Assembly: GCF_009765995.1 (NCBI RefSeq)
Contig: NZ_LMUI01000047.1
Coordinates: 1-64,000 of the forward strand
Direction: 5' to 3'
DNA length: 64,000 nt
DNA from: Methylocapsa sp. S129
GTDB lineage: Bacteria > Pseudomonadota > Alphaproteobacteria > Rhizobiales > Beijerinckiaceae
Below the pieces are notes generated by a model, which saw only the letters and a program-made list of their open reading frames with translations, had not been told where the DNA came from and searched no databases. How positions within the stretch are numbered: the first letter of the stretch is position 1; each line of letters starts with the position of its first letter. Positions 50,129 through 56,165 of this stretch are shown here, in pieces. The translations under genes were made by a program, and so were the position numbers.

Positions 50129-50202
50129 TGGGGGATAGTTCAACGGTAGAACTGCGGACTCTGACTCCGTCAATCTTGGTTCGAATCCAGGTCCCCCAGC
50201 CA
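50129..50202 (+). tRNA. tRNA-Gln (anticodon CTG)
   Basis: A full cloverleaf is visible. The acceptor stem TGGGGGA/TCCCCCA, D-arm GTTC-AACGGTA-GAAC, anticodon arm GCGGA-CTCTGAC-TCCGT (anticodon CTG, reading CAG), T-arm with TTCGAAT, discriminator G and encoded CCA are all present. The last 21 nt are repeated at 56145-56165 and mark the island insertion site. Confidence 0.97.
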
Positions 50203-50478
50203 ATAAAGAATTGAAATAATTGCATAATATTTTGTGACGCTGCTAAAAGGTTTGGCGACGTCACCCACGTCACTGAATCTCCTCACTGCGCTCGAAGATC
50301 AGCGGGGGGGGGCAAAATAGTGTTCGATACTTCATGAGGAAACATGTGAACACCTTTCCGCTTCGGGCTCGGTCGCGGGATTGGCGGCTGTCAAGCTTCT
50401 CGGGCGCAGGTTCGCAGATTTCTTTTGCGATGCGGAAACCCAATTGCACGAATAGGTCGAAGCCACCGCCGCGATGAA
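50203..50478. other. Non-coding left end of the island
   Basis: An AT-rich stretch follows directly after the tRNA, then a 9-G homopolymer near 50303-50312. No ORF or integrase remnant is recognisable. The homopolymer is a possible site of sequencing error. Confidence 0.4.
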
Positions 50479-51309
50479 TTAAACTCCAAGTGGGATTTCA
50501 GCCGTCTTCCACTTTCCTTTCTCGTTGTCTTGCGGAATGTGCGGAGCCACTTGCTCTGACTTGCGCTCGTAAAGCACGGGGGGAACTTTCGCCATGTCCC
50601 ATACGTGGAAGATATAAGCCGGGCCGATTTTCGCCGCCTGATCCCATTCGTGCCTAGTTATGATAAAGCGAAGTGGAGACGCGATCGTGGATTTCACTTC
50701 GATCATGCGGCTGATTGGACCGAACTCCCCCGCGTCGTAAGAGAGGACATCATAACCGGCAAAATTATCGTCTAATCCCTTCCACTCGGGCGTGCGGTTG
50801 AGTCCCAATTTCGCGAGGCGCTGTGTCTCGTAATCCATCGAAAGCTGTTCAGCTTCGCGCGCTTGCTCCATTTTTGCGATATCCGCGATAAGTCGCGCAA
50901 AGCCCGTGACGGTATCCCACCACGTCACTACGGAAATGGGCGGTGGGTCCTTTGCAAGACCGGCCGCCGCAAACACGTCACGATCGTTGGTGGCCAAAGA
51001 GTCCAGGAACCGCATACGCCCTTGTTTCATGGCCTTGCACCAATTCGGCTGATGTTTTGTGACAACTGCCGAGATGCAGGCTTGATAGAATCCGTCGCCG
51101 TTCAGCGGACATTCCGCCTCGACGAGGCCATGCAGATACACCGAAGCCTCTAAATCAAGGTTCGGTGCGTCAGATTCGATGTGCTCGATGATTGCCAGAA
51201 GTTCGACGATCGGCGTGTCCGGTTGCTTGACGGAATAAGCCCGAATCAATCGCACGCCCTCAAAGGCGGAGAGAGCAAAGACTCTCTCAGTTGAAGGCGC
51301 GCCGGTCAT
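50479..51309 (-). CDS. DUF3883 (NO VEIN C-terminal-like) putative nuclease
   Basis: A 276-aa protein. Residues 175-260 match the DUF3883 domain. D187 in NFAGYDVLSYD and E204-V-K206 in MIEVKSTI have the spacing of a PD-(D/E)xK nuclease core. The N-terminal 150 residues are helical with no identified domain. DUF3883 domains are frequently found in restriction and phage-defence operons. The ATG overlaps the helicase stop (ATGA), so the two are co-translated. It is the last gene of the island operon. Confidence 0.78.
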   Translation of the reverse strand: MTGAPSTERVFALSAFEGVRLIRAYSVKQPDTPIVELLAIIEHIESDAPNLDLEASVYLHGLVEAECPLNGDGFYQACISAVVTKHQPNWCKAMKQGRMRFLDSLATNDRDVFAAAGLAKDPPPISVVTWWDTVTGFARLIADIAKMEQAREAEQLSMDYETQRLAKLGLNRTPEWKGLDDNFAGYDVLSYDAGEFGPISRMIEVKSTIASPLRFIITRHEWDQAAKIGPAYIFHVWDMAKVPPVLYERKSEQVAPHIPQDNEKGKWKTAEIPLGV

Positions 51310-53213
51310 TCGTCCTCTTCGGACGAAGGCAGGCCTTTGCCCTCCAACTCACGGATCAGATCTATGATATCATCGGTAGTGATATCGTAGTCGATCGGAT
51401 CATCTGCTTCCTCTTCGTCGAGAGCAATTTCATGAAGATCGGGATCGTTCAAAAGTATCTGCATGTTGCGAATTTTCTCGGTCAGTCTGCGACTGACGGA
51501 AAGGTCGATGCTTCCGATTTCTGGCGGAGCCTTAGAGCGATATAAGAAAATATCTGTTTTCTGATGCGCCTCCAAGCCGAGACGGTGGATACGGTCGATC
51601 GATTGGAGGTAGTGGGTGGAAATGTAGCTTCGATCGACGTAAATAGCGTTGTGGCAAACTGTATGGAGGCTGATGCCTTCGCCCGCTGCTGCCGGATTGG
51701 CGATCAGCACGGAACAACTTCCATCAACATGGAAGCGGTTTACCCGCCCTTCGCGAGTGTCGGGATCACTTTCAGAGCCCGACGGTACGCCGCCATGTAG
51801 TACCACAGGATTGAGGTCGGCTAGCGCCGAAGCAAGGCTTCTGATGGTGTCGGTAAAAATAGTCCATATCACAACCTTTTCGCCCGCGTGCGCCAATGCA
51901 CGCGCGTGATCCATAACGGCGCTCAGCTTCGCCGAGTGTCCCTCTTCCATAACGGTGTCTGCGATGCCGGACGCAATTTGATACTCATCATTTGCCATTG
52001 CGGTTAGCGCTTGGCTGGGGCTCACAGAGAGTTGGAGGAGCCGCATTACCGATCGGCGCGCCCTCAATATCTGCGATTGCCCCATCTTATAGTTCATTTG
52101 CGATGCGAACTGCCGCAGGAACTCGCTACGCACGACGGAGTAAAGTGCGAGTTGTCCGGGCCTCATCGTGATATCGATGAAATGCCGCTTTACCTTTGGA
52201 AGCCCCAATTCGGTCTTCGTCGTGCGGACGTAGAGGTTGCCCAGCACTTCGCGCGGCGCTTTACCTCGCGCAACTTCCACACCGAGCCCGTGGCCTGGCC
52301 AAAGAAAATCTAGCTGCGATTGAATGTCGGACGCTGCTTGAGGCATTGGCGTCCCGGTAAGAATGTCGCGCCGGGCAGGCAGCGTGGCGACGTTGAGCAA
52401 AAATGCACCGCGCTGCGAAAGCAACCCAGCCTTCATGCGATGCGCTTCATCCAAAACCAAATGGATCGAGTGGCTCGCGAAATGCGATGCGATCAACCCT
52501 TGCTGACGGATCATCAGATCGTACGACATGAGGAACCGTGTTGCACCGGACACAAGGGCGAGCGCTGTCTCTTGTTCGCGCCCATCGAGAACGATGAACT
52601 GTTCTGATGCGCCGTCCGATGCATCAGCAATCATGCATTCATCAACTATGTCCCGCCACGCCTGAAAGGCGGCCTTTGGTGCAACGACAAAAAGTTGCTG
52701 AGCAGGCTTGCGGACCATCAGGTGCAAAGCAAATGTGACTGTGGTTTTGCCCGCGCCGGGGACCGAGAAATTTGCACCGTTCGCAAGCGTCATGAGATGT
52801 GAGAGGTCGCGAAGCTGAAAATCCTTGAGTTTCCGTCTCTGGAAACCCATCGACCAGAGATCGGCCTCAATCTGCTCCGGCGTGCGCACAGGAGCGAGCG
52901 CCTGCTGACATTCTCGCGCGGACCGCACTTCCGAGGAAAAAGCTTGAATGCGCGCCGCAGCGCTTTCGTCCGGCCTGAACCGAAAATTCAAGGCGCGTTG
53001 GGTTGCCTTCGAGCCAAACTCTCGGACAACATTCAACGCGTCGGGCCATGCCAGATGGATGGTTGATGCCGTTATGCTGGCGCTAAGATCGCTCTCGACA
53101 ATAAGAGCGCGAATGCGCGACCATATCGGTGCGGAGGTGTCCTCGGGCGCAATAACGAAGCACCCGGTATTGCCTGCGCCGTATTCGATCTTAATGGAAG
53201 TCGGGTCGCTCAT
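51306..53213 (-). CDS. SNF2-type superfamily 2 helicase/translocase
   Basis: A 635-aa protein. An N-terminal region of about 125 residues without a known domain is followed by two RecA-like domains. Walker A is VPGAGKTT (151-158) and DEAH is at 255-258 in HLVLDEAHRMK. DILTGTPMPQAASD is motif III-like, and SIDRIHRLGL is the SNF2 motif VI. Such enzymes translocate on duplex DNA and drive many restriction and defence complexes. The tail (about 590-635) is very acidic. An AAGG site precedes the start, 13 bp after the ParB-like stop. Confidence 0.9.
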   Translation of the reverse strand: MSDPTSIKIEYGAGNTGCFVIAPEDTSAPIWSRIRALIVESDLSASITASTIHLAWPDALNVVREFGSKATQRALNFRFRPDESAAARIQAFSSEVRSARECQQALAPVRTPEQIEADLWSMGFQRRKLKDFQLRDLSHLMTLANGANFSVPGAGKTTVTFALHLMVRKPAQQLFVVAPKAAFQAWRDIVDECMIADASDGASEQFIVLDGREQETALALVSGATRFLMSYDLMIRQQGLIASHFASHSIHLVLDEAHRMKAGLLSQRGAFLLNVATLPARRDILTGTPMPQAASDIQSQLDFLWPGHGLGVEVARGKAPREVLGNLYVRTTKTELGLPKVKRHFIDITMRPGQLALYSVVRSEFLRQFASQMNYKMGQSQILRARRSVMRLLQLSVSPSQALTAMANDEYQIASGIADTVMEEGHSAKLSAVMDHARALAHAGEKVVIWTIFTDTIRSLASALADLNPVVLHGGVPSGSESDPDTREGRVNRFHVDGSCSVLIANPAAAGEGISLHTVCHNAIYVDRSYISTHYLQSIDRIHRLGLEAHQKTDIFLYRSKAPPEIGSIDLSVSRRLTEKIRNMQILLNDPDLHEIALDEEEADDPIDYDITTDDIIDLIRELEGKGLPSSEEDE

Positions 53214-53226
53214 GAACAGAAGCGCC

Positions 53227-54558
53227 TTAGTCTTCGGTGTCGGATGGCGGCGATTTCTTCAGAATGGCTAGCTTGGTATCGAGCTTGCCAAGAAGTTCGC
53301 GGATGGATTCGAGCTGCTTGCCGATTCCTAGATAAGTGTTCACGCCCGCCGTCGAAAGATCAATGCCCGCGAGTTTAGCGTGCACTTGGACGAATGCTTT
53401 CAGCGCGGCTCCTTTGGAACGCTGTCCCCGATCGCGTTCGAGAGTACTGATGCAAGCTTCAATCAGTGCCTCTACGGCGTCTTCTTTCGTTTCGTCGCTC
53501 TTGAGGGCGGCGATAATGCGGGAGTAGTCCTCGCCCGCCGTGGCACCTCCCGCGATGTCGACCGAGAACCCTTCATCGTCGTCGTCTGCCCCGGTTACTG
53601 AAGCCGTTGGCAAATCGAGCTGCTCCGCGACGATGGCGAGAACGACAGGCGCGAGTTTGCCAAAAGCGGCATTGTACGAGTAGACCCGCCCCGGGACCTT
53701 GTCCCGATTGTCAAACAGCGACCATGCGATTGCACGGCTGGCGCTCTGAAGAGCAACGGTCTGACCGGAAAGCCGTCTAGGTAAGTCGCCGAAAATCTGT
53801 TCGCCGTCACCACTCAAGATGGAATACTGGCCAGGTTTTTTGACCCACTCATTGAGGTAAAGATCGGCCTCATCGATGGATTGTAGAAGGTTTCGGACAT
53901 CGGCTTCGCTGCGTCGCAGTTGCACTGCGACTACCTTCGGCTGTCTTCCTTTGTTCACCTGCCTGCGAACGAGCTGTGCGTCGCCGATCCAATCATACTC
54001 GAGTTTTGTCTGAGGCCGTGCTTGCTCGTTGGCCTCGATATCATCTACCTCATCGGGATTGGTGTCCGCGGGAAGCACCAAACACTTAATGTGGGCATAT
54101 CGCGAATTGACTGACTCATCGTCCGCGTAGAGTTCGCGCATGGCGCTCAGGCGACGATTGCCGTTCACAACCGTCCCAGTGCTCGTAATGAGAATTGGAT
54201 TACGCTGACCTTCTGTTTCCAGCACATCGAGAATGGACGAGACAGACGTGGATTCTTTCTTCGCCAGCTTCGCAAGGAGTGCATGTTGCGCGGCCTGCAC
54301 CGTGCTCAGCTCCTGGCCTTTTGCGAAATAGTTCTTATCGAGTCCGCCCTTAGCGATCGCGTCCTCCTGCTCGGAATAAGTTCGGCAGTTTGCCATGCGG
54401 TAGACGGGCAGATCGACCGGAAGGCTGATAACTTTCAGTACAGCTTTCTCACCACGAAAATCCCACAGCACGTCAGTATCGATCGCCGACTCAAGCCGCT
54501 TTTGAATGACGGCTTCGCGCTCCGATCGAGGGGTAAGCTTGATTTCGTATTTCGCCAT
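53227..54558 (-). CDS. ParB/Srx N-terminal-domain protein
   Basis: A 443-aa protein. Residues about 40-145 match the ParB/Srx (KorB-type) fold, with EGQRNPILITSTGTVVNGNRRLSAMREL, where GNRR (133-136) corresponds to the nucleotide-binding box of ParB-like proteins. A ParB-type HTH-like middle part (about 195-245) follows, then a long helical C-terminus. It could be a DNA-sliding or CTP-switching clamp in the system. There is no parA or parS context, so plasmid partition is unlikely. An AGAGG site lies 5 bp before the ATG. Confidence 0.75.
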   Translation of the reverse strand: MAKYEIKLTPRSEREAVIQKRLESAIDTDVLWDFRGEKAVLKVISLPVDLPVYRMANCRTYSEQEDAIAKGGLDKNYFAKGQELSTVQAAQHALLAKLAKKESTSVSSILDVLETEGQRNPILITSTGTVVNGNRRLSAMRELYADDESVNSRYAHIKCLVLPADTNPDEVDDIEANEQARPQTKLEYDWIGDAQLVRRQVNKGRQPKVVAVQLRRSEADVRNLLQSIDEADLYLNEWVKKPGQYSILSGDGEQIFGDLPRRLSGQTVALQSASRAIAWSLFDNRDKVPGRVYSYNAAFGKLAPVVLAIVAEQLDLPTASVTGADDDDEGFSVDIAGGATAGEDYSRIIAALKSDETKEDAVEALIEACISTLERDRGQRSKGAALKAFVQVHAKLAGIDLSTAGVNTYLGIGKQLESIRELLGKLDTKLAILKKSPPSDTED

Positions 54559-54567
54559 CTGCGCCTC

Positions 54568-55032
54568 TTATTGGAATGCAACAACAATGATTGGCACTGT
54601 GATGACGCGATCGAAGAGTTTCATCTCACGACATACGCGCTCGGCATTAGCCAGATTGTCGCCGATGACTTTAGCGGCACCCCGCGTGGGAAGCGCAAGC
54701 GCCGCGGCCGCGATGCGTTTACTTTGATATAGGTACTGCAATTTTAGCAAGTCGTACGGCGCGCGGCTCATGTTGCCCGTTTGTAGTTGAAACGCCAAGT
54801 CGTCCTTAATCGCGGTCACCGCTAGTTGATGCTGCTGATCGAGACGAAAGTTGAGAGCCCAACCCTCATTGACGAATTCCTGCTCGACGTGCTGGTGGAT
54901 TTCCGAGGTGCACTTCTGCTGAATCTTCAAGGCTGGGGCCTCAAAAACGTCGGTCAACCACTCTTTCAGTTCACGACGCTCCCACTCCGCGCCTGCGTTG
55001 TGGTGATCATCATAGGTGAACGCGAGTCTCAT
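54568..55032 (-). CDS. BglII/BstYI-like restriction endonuclease, atypical active site
   Basis: A 154-aa protein overlapping the methyltransferase stop by 4 bp. The segment D77-D-L-A-F-Q82-L-Q84-T-G-N87 followed by YDLLKLQYLY (93-102) resembles the core of BglII/BstYI-type enzymes (…E-V-Q-F-G-N… YDL…), in which Glu-x-Gln binds the metal. Here the Glu position is Gln. It may therefore be inactive, or a variant, and serve for DNA recognition. The family assignment is from remembered motifs and is only moderately sure. Being only 154 aa, it is shorter than BglII (about 220). Confidence 0.55.
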   Translation of the reverse strand: MRLAFTYDDHHNAGAEWERRELKEWLTDVFEAPALKIQQKCTSEIHQHVEQEFVNEGWALNFRLDQQHQLAVTAIKDDLAFQLQTGNMSRAPYDLLKLQYLYQSKRIAAAALALPTRGAAKVIGDNLANAERVCREMKLFDRVITVPIIVVAFQ

Positions 55033-55928
55033 TCGGTCTCCTGCGGCAACGGTTCGTACACAGGTTTATTCATGGGGCGCGTTCGCAGTTCCCCAGCAAA
55101 AAACTTCTGGACGCGATCGCGCGCGATCGCAGTGTATTCGGATAGGCTGTCGCATCCGTACGCGTTGCGTCCATTCTTCAAAGCTGCGATCGCAGACGAA
55201 CCCACTCCAAGATATGGGTCGAGCACGTTGTCACCCGCTTTGGTCAATGCAAGTACCAAGCGTTCAACCAGGCCGACGGGAAATTGGCAAGGATGGTCCG
55301 TCTTCTCGACATGGTTGGCCTTGACGTTCGGGATATCCCATACGTCGGAAGGGTTTTTACCGAGCGGGTTGCCAGACATTTGCCCTTTCTTGGGGCCCTT
55401 GAAGTGCTTTTTCTCAGGATACTTCGAAGCTACACGCACTGGATCGAGATTGAAGGTGTAATCGTCGCTCTTTGTGAACCAAAGGATTGTTTCATGGCGT
55501 CCCGAAAAGCGCTTTTGGCAATGCAGTCCATGTCCAAAGGTCCAGACAATTCTATTTCTCAGCATCAATCCGTGGTTCCGAAACAGCGGATACAAAAGGA
55601 TGTCGAGAGGAAAAATTTCTCCATCTGCGACGTGATTTCCAACTTGCCAGCAGATAGACCCTTCTGGCTTTAGCAGCCTGACCGCCTCAGCAATCGTTGC
55701 GGCTTGCTCTTCGAGATAAATGTCCTGAGAGCGTTTGGATTCGTAAGACTTTCCAAGGTTATATGGCGGAGAACTTACAATCAGTTGCATCGACTGATCG
55801 TCAAGCTTTCGCATGAACTTCAGGTTGTCCAAAGTTTCGATTTTCACTTCAAGCTTCGATGGAAAGCGCAGGACGTTGTTCGCTGGCTTTTCTTGTTTCC
55901 GCGCTAGTTGGGCCATTTTTTGGGTCAT
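55029..55928 (-). CDS. Site-specific DNA methyltransferase (beta class, N4-cytosine or N6-adenine)
   Basis: A 299-aa methyltransferase. Motif IV SSPPYN (52-57) precedes motif I DPYLGVGSSAIAAL (237-250), the beta-class order. SPPY is most often found in N4-cytosine enzymes, as in the BglII system, but N6-adenine cannot be excluded. The target-recognition region lies between about 60 and 215. It is the first gene of the island operon and overlaps the BglII-like gene by 4 bp (ATGA), the arrangement of a type II restriction-modification pair. ATG 55928 or 55916 are both possible. Confidence 0.88.
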   Translation of the reverse strand: MTQKMAQLARKQEKPANNVLRFPSKLEVKIETLDNLKFMRKLDDQSMQLIVSSPPYNLGKSYESKRSQDIYLEEQAATIAEAVRLLKPEGSICWQVGNHVADGEIFPLDILLYPLFRNHGLMLRNRIVWTFGHGLHCQKRFSGRHETILWFTKSDDYTFNLDPVRVASKYPEKKHFKGPKKGQMSGNPLGKNPSDVWDIPNVKANHVEKTDHPCQFPVGLVERLVLALTKAGDNVLDPYLGVGSSAIAALKNGRNAYGCDSLSEYTAIARDRVQKFFAGELRTRPMNKPVYEPLPQETE

Positions 55929-56144
55929 TCTCTATCGTTTGGTGTGCCAACCTAGCCCTCGCAGGGTGGGTTGCGGTCACATAAGGTTACACAAAGCCCC
56001 CATGGGGAACCCTCGAATCCATTGCCAAGGTCGAGTATATACGGGTGGGACAAAATAGGAACGTGGCTTGTTTAGGCAACACAGAATGTTAGACTAACGG
56101 CGTTGATCTCTCGCTTCATGCAGCGCTTTGGACAAAGTTCTAAA
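55929..56144. promoter_or_regulatory. Upstream region of the island operon
   Basis: It should contain the only promoter of the operon. A 10-bp palindrome CCCCATGGGG near 55998-56007 lies within a wider GGTT…AACC dyad. No convincing -35/-10 pair was found and no controller-protein gene is present. Confidence 0.3.
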
Positions 56145-56165
56145 CGTATCCAGGCCCCCCAGCCA
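56145..56165. repeat. Direct repeat of the tRNA-Gln 3' end (right attachment site)
   Basis: CG-T-ATCCAGG-C-CCCCCAGCCA matches 50182-50202 at 19 of 21 positions. The mismatches are at 56147 and 56155. It closes the island. Confidence 0.8.

Follow-up and report, generated by a model that had tools for sequence, protein, structure and literature searches.

What would a DNA methyltransferase, a relative of a restriction endonuclease, a ParB-like protein, an SNF2-type ATPase and a DUF3883 protein do together? This question is raised by five consecutive minus-strand genes in a 64,000-nucleotide stretch of Methylocapsa sp. S129 (contig NZ_LMUI01000047.1, positions 1 to 64,000), which we call the window. 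A first-pass annotation had described them as one tight operon on a tRNA-borne island and as a candidate undescribed defence system. Our analysis of the five proteins and their relatives makes it fairly probable that the operon encodes an ATP-dependent restriction system that is guarded by methylation and has an undescribed architecture, a reading that is drawn from sequence comparison and predicted folds. The five genes, from first to last (lengths in amino acids, aa), are as follows:

55029..55928, minus strand: gene 1, beta-class DNA methyltransferase, 299 aa (SPPY, then DPYLGVGS); Pfam PF01555 (N6_N4_Mtase), E = 7.8e-50
54568..55032, minus strand: gene 2, BstYI/BglII-fold protein, 154 aa, predicted DNA reader without the two catalytic acids (T73 and Q82 in their places), Q84 kept; PF09195
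53227..54558, minus strand: gene 3, ParB-like protein, 443 aa, GNRR motif at 133-136, predicted ParB N-terminal domain and helix-turn-helix (HTH); PHROG and predicted fold
51306..53213, minus strand: gene 4, SNF2-type ATPase/translocase, 635 aa, helicase motifs intact; PF00176/PF00271
50479..51309, minus strand: gene 5, NOV_C/DUF3883 protein, 276 aa, predicted PD-(D/E)xK nuclease (D187, E204, K206); PF13020, E = 2.6e-14

All five reading frames are open and are separated by -4, 9, 13 and -4 base pairs (bp), exactly as annotated, which upholds the claim of a single tight operon. The assigned families and their order are likewise supported by Pfam, PHROG and predicted folds. The Pfam match of gene 2 to Endonuc-BglII is barely above the cut-off (6.5e-6, 26.4 bits against 26); gene 3 has no Pfam match and is recognised through PHROG ParB families (best 1.9e-5), and gene 4 matches SNF2-rel_dom (5.2e-10) and Helicase_C (2.7e-6). 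The fifth gene belongs to NOV_C, which we take to be the same family as DUF3883, the name that related plasmid genes carry in their annotation. A chance or decayed operon was rejected, since the five genes are open and their order is repeated elsewhere.

To follow this recurrence, first relatives were collected from PLSDB plasmids, and a profile built from the window SNF2 protein and six plasmid SNF2 proteins then yielded the best 80 of 455 genome loci, along with 79 predicted-virus loci. We examined 94 loci (L002-L095) and tabled 93 of them; L094 ends inside the SNF2 gene. The complete order methyltransferase, BstYI-like, ParB, SNF2, NOV_C was found in 43 of the 80 genome loci and, repeats included (L002/L012; L014/L090/L093; L028/L091; L004/L083), in 48 of the 94 loci examined. 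The co-occurrence that the first-pass annotation had asked about is therefore real: the five families recur in the same order in distant bacteria. ParB stands directly before SNF2 in 79/80 genome loci, the exception being L048, whose contig starts at SNF2; the BstYI-like gene precedes ParB in 48/80, and NOV_C was found in 69/80.

Because the six plasmid proteins of the profile had been picked for a nearby ParB gene, we retested the ParB-SNF2 pairing in two other ways. By profile, none of the 73 control loci (L096-L168), whose SNF2 genes are unrelated, contained a ParB, NOV_C or BstYI-like gene. A search started from ParB matched 7 of 385 genomes of the class, with SNF2 adjoining in 6 of the 7, the window included; class-sample genome G375 proved to be the contig of L013. 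In 398 genomes of the phylum, the same search gave four matches, namely genome G217, the window and the contigs of L014 and L052. The system is thus rare and patchy, in about 1-2% of sampled genomes with the window's own counted. The match in G217 (L187, 6460-8028) is a 522-aa protein, and the 14 kb fetched around it hold no SNF2 gene.

Going by the record titles, the five-gene order extends over eight phyla: Pseudomonadota, Bacteroidota, Verrucomicrobiota, Spirochaetota, Latescibacterota, Nitrospinota, Calditrichota and Ignavibacteriota. Metagenome bins account for many of the records; the Bacteroidota include the isolate Parapedobacter tibetensis, and a Paracoccus denitrificans plasmid carries the five genes in identical order. 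Bacillus infantis and Paenibacillus lautus carry four of the genes, with a methyltransferase gene upstream and on the opposite strand. Median gaps in the 43 genome loci with all five genes are -4, 11, 6 and -4 bp. In 40 of these 43 loci (L014, L035 and L080 left out) the five families have pairwise distances that correlate with one another (r 0.80-0.97), a figure that still includes host relatedness. Mean identity over the 40 loci is 69% for the methyltransferase, 54% for SNF2, 53% for the BstYI-like protein, 41% for ParB and 39% for NOV_C; the methyltransferase varies least, which would make sense if the marker and the reader have to share one site. In one Hyphomonadaceae locus (L058, 8986-10882) SNF2 is split into two overlapping frames with the other four genes open, from decay or a sequencing error.

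Does gene 2 cut DNA or read it? A profile of 39 BstYI-like operon proteins matched BstYI at 3.8e-21, BamHI at 3.9e-5, OkrAI at 1e-4 and BglII at 0.14. The AlphaFold2 model of gene 2 has a pLDDT (predicted local distance difference test) score of 95.7, and all 16 of its Foldseek matches in the PDB with E <=0.001 are BstYI, BamHI, OkrAI or BglII. Three alignments place the glutamate of the PD...(D/E)xK motif in BstYI (VAIEVQ), BamHI (VGMEFE) and OkrAI (FALEWE), and the catalytic residue numbers of BstYI, BamHI and BglII served as guide to the columns of gene 2. Among 55 aligned operon proteins, a set that takes in the window and four repeats of a locus (51 without repeats), the column of this glutamate (82) holds Q (44 rows), H (5), C (4) or N (2) and is never acidic, and the column of the first acid (73) holds F (33), T (13), N (5) or S (4). 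Both catalytic acids are thus absent from 55/55 rows. Q84, in the place of the motif lysine, is kept in 55/55; the available part of one source gives Q at this position in BglII and E in BamHI (PMC4081073).

As a control, PF09195 was sought in the 398 genomes of the phylum and gave ten matches, two of which are the window and a Paracoccus sanguinis operon. The other eight lie outside such operons, and all eight have an acid at both catalytic places (patterns such as DCFKNRVAVEVEWN). In the short flanks fetched they show no gene for ParB, SNF2, NOV_C or a matching methyltransferase; none of their genomes belongs to the four of the phylum that match ParB; and they are 196-305 aa long, compared with 154 aa for gene 2. 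These observations suggest that the BstYI-like protein is probably a DNA reader rather than a nuclease.

The idea of a type II restriction-modification pair with extras, from which the first-pass annotation had started, fails at this point: because the BstYI-like protein lacks both catalytic acids, the two genes do not form an ordinary type II pair. A methyltransferase that could serve as the cognate one is present (PF01555, 7.8e-50), and a competent endonuclease is, by alignment, not (acids absent in 55/55). We also considered a classical type II pair in which the BstYI-like enzyme is active through a relocated site, with ParB, SNF2 and NOV_C as helpers that, for example, clear bound proteins or degrade cut DNA. 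The fold and profile are clearly those of BstYI/BamHI/BglII, other acids are conserved (D94 and E136 in 55/55, D78 in 47/55), and on a Lactococcus plasmid a ParB-SNF2 pair follows a type III Mod-Res pair, all of which would suit such a pair. Even so, the metal-binding acid positions hold F/T/N/S and Q/H/C/N in every operon row and an acid in all eight ordinary family members, and the window protein is short, so we regard an active type II enzyme as unlikely.

The partner of the putative reader would be gene 1, whose nearest PDB match is M.RsrI (1.1e-36). Motifs IV and I are present in its relatives, and 39 of 40 of these carry SPPY, a motif that by rule goes with N4-cytosine methylation. SPPY thus suggests that gene 1 is an N4-cytosine methyltransferase, although its nearest solved relative, M.RsrI, is an adenine enzyme. 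N4-cytosine methylation is a feature of the BamHI/BglII/BstYI clan.

By sequence motifs, the remaining three proteins look alive. The AlphaFold2 model of gene 3 (pLDDT 90.9) shows a ParB N-terminal domain and HTH, and its top 20 Foldseek matches in the PDB are all KorB, ParB, Spo0J, Noc or pNOB8 ParB, just the best of them (7.5e-4) lying below 0.001; among PDB sequences a profile search found nothing significant. N134, R136, E175, Q179 and Y188 are invariant in 94 rows, including R136 of the GNRR motif (94/94). Relatives of the KorB/ParB/Noc type are CTP-dependent DNA clamps and repressors. Gene 4 has helicase motifs I, II, III and VI; the Walker A lysine K156 is kept in 94/96 rows, the DExH aspartate D255 in 95/96, and R541 and R544 in 94/96, the rest being mostly gaps. 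In NOV_C, D187, E204 and K206 are each kept in 74/75 rows and the three residues again in 39/39 rows of alignment A5, which reaches down to 14% identity, so that a D...ExK active site is predicted; the NOV_C profile had a single, chance-level match among PDB sequences. In the available part of a 2013 HEPN survey, DUF3883 is called a novel restriction endonuclease domain that is fused to SNF2 in restriction-modification operons (PMC3710099).

The same proteins could also silence or hold DNA rather than destroy it, with ParB spreading from unmodified sites, SNF2 remodelling or stalling DNA so that transcription or replication is blocked without cutting, and NOV_C in a secondary role. The predicted ParB fold, closest to KorB/ParB/Noc, and the 11 of 80 loci in which NOV_C went undetected would agree with such a device. 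We nevertheless consider it improbable, even slightly more so than an active type II enzyme, because NOV_C keeps its D...ExK residues in 74/75 rows, down to 14% identity in A5, and occurs in 69/80 loci.

The mechanism that we favour builds on the gene set, its order and conservation, the absence of the acids in gene 2 and their presence in NOV_C, and the predicted folds of genes 2 and 3; from these we infer a target site, protein contacts, an order of events and an antiphage effect. The methyltransferase would mark a short site in host DNA, and a dimer of the dead BstYI-like protein would bind the same site when it is unmarked, acting as specificity subunit. The reader might then hand over to the ParB-like protein, loaded there to work as a nucleotide-dependent clamp or loader; the SNF2 protein would translocate on the duplex using ATP, and the NOV_C protein, with its intact PD-(D/E)xK motif, would cut. 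The earlier proposal of recognition by the BglII-like subunit, with translocation and cleavage supplied by the SNF2 and DUF3883 proteins, fits the loss of acids in gene 2 and the intact motifs in SNF2 and NOV_C.

Is the setting one of defence? We scanned the neighbours of 34 of the 43 five-gene loci, using 122 of 123 picked proteins of >=200 aa (one long protein was dropped for size). At E 1e-10 the 122 neighbours match 303 PADLOC families, and QatA, PtuA, AriA, NsnA, reverse transcriptase and type I, II and III methyltransferases are among the matches listed; their Pfam matches include relaxases, phage integrases, GmrSD, SIR2, HipA and ArdC together with ordinary transport and metabolic genes. 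A small control set of 40 further window proteins matches 14 PADLOC families, for the most part generic models of the helicase, dGTPase and kinase-like kind. Neighbour matches to mad3, which also matches 1 of the 40 control proteins, were not counted as evidence. Set against this control, the five-gene neighbourhood looks like defence islands and mobile elements, and it is from the neighbourhood that we infer a defence function of the operon.

A further reading is a device that protects or maintains a mobile element rather than its host, whether by counter-restriction, like the polyvalent proteins that join SNF2, methylase and ParB domains, or as a partition or addiction module. The genes are found not just on this island but also on plasmids and predicted-virus contigs (L090-L095, of which three repeat genome loci), the PHROG helicase family phrog_62 matches SNF2 at 5.1e-48, and the available part of one source describes polyvalent proteins uniting the three domains (PMC5512222). 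The same portion of that source mentions neither a BstYI-like reader nor a NOV_C nuclease in them (PMC5512222); here the functions are encoded by separate genes in fixed order, often near known defence genes, and no ParA is among the five. On balance we find a purely element-serving role very unlikely.

The target site was approached through RGATCY. The window contains 29 such sites, compared with a shuffle mean of 79 and a Markov estimate of 51, and stretches of five same-genus genomes, in which the ParB gene was not found, contain 40 against 64. Avoidance of RGATCY was therefore rejected as a clue to the target, since same-genus stretches that lack the system are depleted of it to about the same degree.

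Several observations weigh against the restriction system as we propose it. The claim that gene 2 is a dead enzyme is alignment-based, and the conserved D78, D94 and E136 could supply a migrated active site. The profiles found no NOV_C in 11/80 loci, two of them at contig ends; the BstYI-like gene is absent in 30/80 loci without a contig end as explanation; and in G217, a genome of the class sample, a protein matches the ParB profile with SNF2 missing. Furthermore, the background of the neighbour survey is small and comes from one genome, and the scarcity of RGATCY in the window is shared by relatives that lack the system.

How does the operon compare with systems already named? In PADLOC, the five proteins match generic methyltransferase models, SNF2 models weakly and NOV_C-type models weakly (PDC-S36 at 3.2e-7, PD-T4-1 at 5.4e-5); the ParB-like and BstYI-like proteins match nothing there. 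The annotators' view that the set corresponds to no named system thus held up, none having matched among the systems tested with Pfam, PADLOC and NCBIfam. Open-licence PMC full text, which leaves subscription papers and most preprints outside, yielded no description of the gene set or of a ParB-SNF2 restriction pair.

Like type II systems of the BamHI/BglII/BstYI clan, the operon has a methyltransferase adjoining a BstYI-fold protein; unlike them, it has lost both catalytic acids and added clamp, motor and nuclease genes. Type I, ISP and III restriction-modification systems combine a methylation-guarded site with an ATP-driven motor and a PD-(D/E)xK nuclease. The system proposed here would share this combination, whereas its SNF2-type motor is separate from the nuclease, it includes a ParB-like protein, and its specificity would lie in a dead enzyme. 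None of the five proteins matched type I HsdR, HsdM or HsdS in Pfam or NCBIfam or among the PADLOC matches listed, and type III Mod (EcoP15I-type C-terminal domain) and Res, both matched in L009, were unmatched in the window's five.

Gene 4 is distantly related to the SNF2 helicases DrmD, ZorD and DpdE of DISARM, Zorya and Dpd. Membership in these systems was rejected, as its NCBIfam scores lie far under the curated cut-offs, at 35.6 of 610 bits for DrmD, 25.6 of 1500 for ZorD and 21.4 of 500 for DpdE; to our knowledge, their other hallmark genes are not among the five. BREX was rejected likewise, PglZ and BrxC/PglY being unmatched among the five proteins in Pfam, PADLOC and NCBIfam. The SNF2-DUF3883 proteins of Anantharaman et al. 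(2013) are also placed with restriction-modification components, but the available part of that paper sets them in a HEPN/AAA (Ava_2192) context and describes no ParB or BstYI-like reader (PMC3710099). Other ParB/Srx-superfamily defence proteins, such as DndB, GmrS/DUF262, Osa and ParB-methylases, likewise stand beside DNA modification in the accessible parts of their sources (PMC12839542, PMC10952713, PMC5512222). Gene 3 differs from them in its KorB/ParB-like N-domain with HTH, its GNRR motif and its place next to SNF2 in 79/80 loci. The working principle, to mark self and destroy unmarked DNA, is that of restriction-modification, and the parts and their division of labour fit no known described type.

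Part of this set also occurs with other partners. In PLSDB, the ParB-SNF2 pair stands with other partners in Azospirillum, Mesorhizobium, Rhizobium, Kozakia, Streptomyces, Enterococcus and Lactococcus (one record each), and we clustered the neighbours of the 30 loci without a BstYI-like gene, of plasmid loci L003-L009 and of L095. A 280-aa protein without a Pfam family directly precedes ParB in 8 loci of one cluster, as well as in L003 and L004; of these 8 loci, 6 contribute to a C5 cytosine methyltransferase cluster that spans 9 loci in all, and 5 to a Vsr cluster spanning 7, both families being confirmed on single members. For example, in L071 (4057-11797), and also in L005, L072, L078, L079, L086 and L095, the 280-aa protein comes before ParB-SNF2(-NOV_C), with a C5 methyltransferase and mostly Vsr nearby. 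A hidden BstYI-like or NOV_C-like domain in the 280-aa protein was rejected (hhalign probability <1% for both).

Other methyltransferases adjoin the core as well: a 305-444-aa N6_N4 enzyme behind it in 7 loci (two members tested; in L054 it lies farther away, on the opposite strand), a 650-690-aa enzyme before or behind it in 8 (two members tested) and an Eco57I-like enzyme beside it in 6 (one member tested). In two genomes of the class sample the gene immediately ahead of ParB encodes a methyltransferase, and no BstYI-like gene is present. On Lactococcus lactis plasmid NZ_CP087603.1 (L009, 1-7497), type III Mod, Res, ParB and SNF2 follow one another, and a profile search of that locus found no NOV_C gene; a 203-aa gene behind ParB-SNF2 in Lactococcus was rejected as a diverged NOV_C. 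That the Res nuclease is present where NOV_C is missing fits NOV_C as the cutting part elsewhere, in this one case.

Two further plasmid arrangements were seen. In Mesorhizobium mediterraneum the SNF2 and DUF3883 genes are separated by a transposase gene of the IS481 family (L004, 9973-10920). On Enterococcus faecalis plasmid NZ_CP110076.1 (L008, 138-7500) ParB-SNF2 follows two genes, one for an 864-aa protein matching sigma70 region 4 and one for a 427-aa protein; SNF2 matches occur in 52 Enterococcus plasmid records, of which L008 alone was inspected.

ParB-SNF2(-NOV_C) is thus a wider module beside several unrelated modification genes, which, by their position, may work with it. We raise tentatively, and with somewhat less than even confidence, the broader view that ParB-SNF2-NOV_C is a general restriction engine and a further restriction-modification class, plugged into at least four unrelated marking or reading modules: the beta-class methyltransferase with the dead BstYI-fold reader; the C5/Vsr/280-aa set; Eco57I-like or 650-690-aa methyltransferases; and type III Mod/Res (without NOV_C). 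In its commonest form, a restriction enzyme turned specificity subunit would act through a segregation-type clamp that signals a motor and a separate nuclease.

How this copy came to its place can be read in part from its borders, which are marked by three features:

50129..50202, plus strand: tRNA-Gln, CTG anticodon, insertion site of the island (ARAGORN; Rfam RF00005)
50182..50202, plus strand: att-like repeat 1, equal to the 3' end of tRNA-Gln (repeat search)
56145..56165, plus strand: att-like repeat 2, far end of the island (repeat search)

The two copies of this 21-nucleotide near-repeat are identical at 19/21 positions and border a 5.96-kb island with outer ends at 50182 and 56165. With at most two mismatches, their consensus occurs at just these two sites of the 6.87-Mb genome, and the backward control pattern at none. 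GC content in 2-kb windows is 52-57% within the island, compared with 58-70% outside. The five operon genes take up the space between the repeats, where the open reading frame list and a family scan of the island revealed no integrase gene; this island of less than 6 kb with tRNA-end repeats therefore probably depended on an integrase in trans for its movement. A search for the empty site found no tRNA-Gln in the up to 1.5 kb covered on either side of the left flanking gene in 8/8 same-genus genomes that have that gene, and for the right flanking gene a search of 8 same-genus genomes gave nothing at E 1e-20. The island contains no tandem repeats and no structured RNA besides the tRNA, and a scan for sigma-70-like promoters gave 0 sites against 3.3 expected.

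The description of the operon as tRNA-borne is right for this copy, which the tRNA-Gln 3'-end repeats enclose, and does not extend to the system as a whole. Any tRNA gene was present in 10 of 50 searched loci, and within 1 kb of the operon in three of these (L011, L028 and L030), so that tRNA sites were rejected as the general home of the system.

If the restriction system is as we propose, it would add an ATP-dependent class of restriction-modification in which recognition, clamping, translocation and cutting are divided among four separate proteins. It would show a restriction enzyme put to new use in nature, purely to read DNA, and it would bring a ParB-type clamp into immunity. Clear tests of these ideas would become possible, and the module can be found with one profile.

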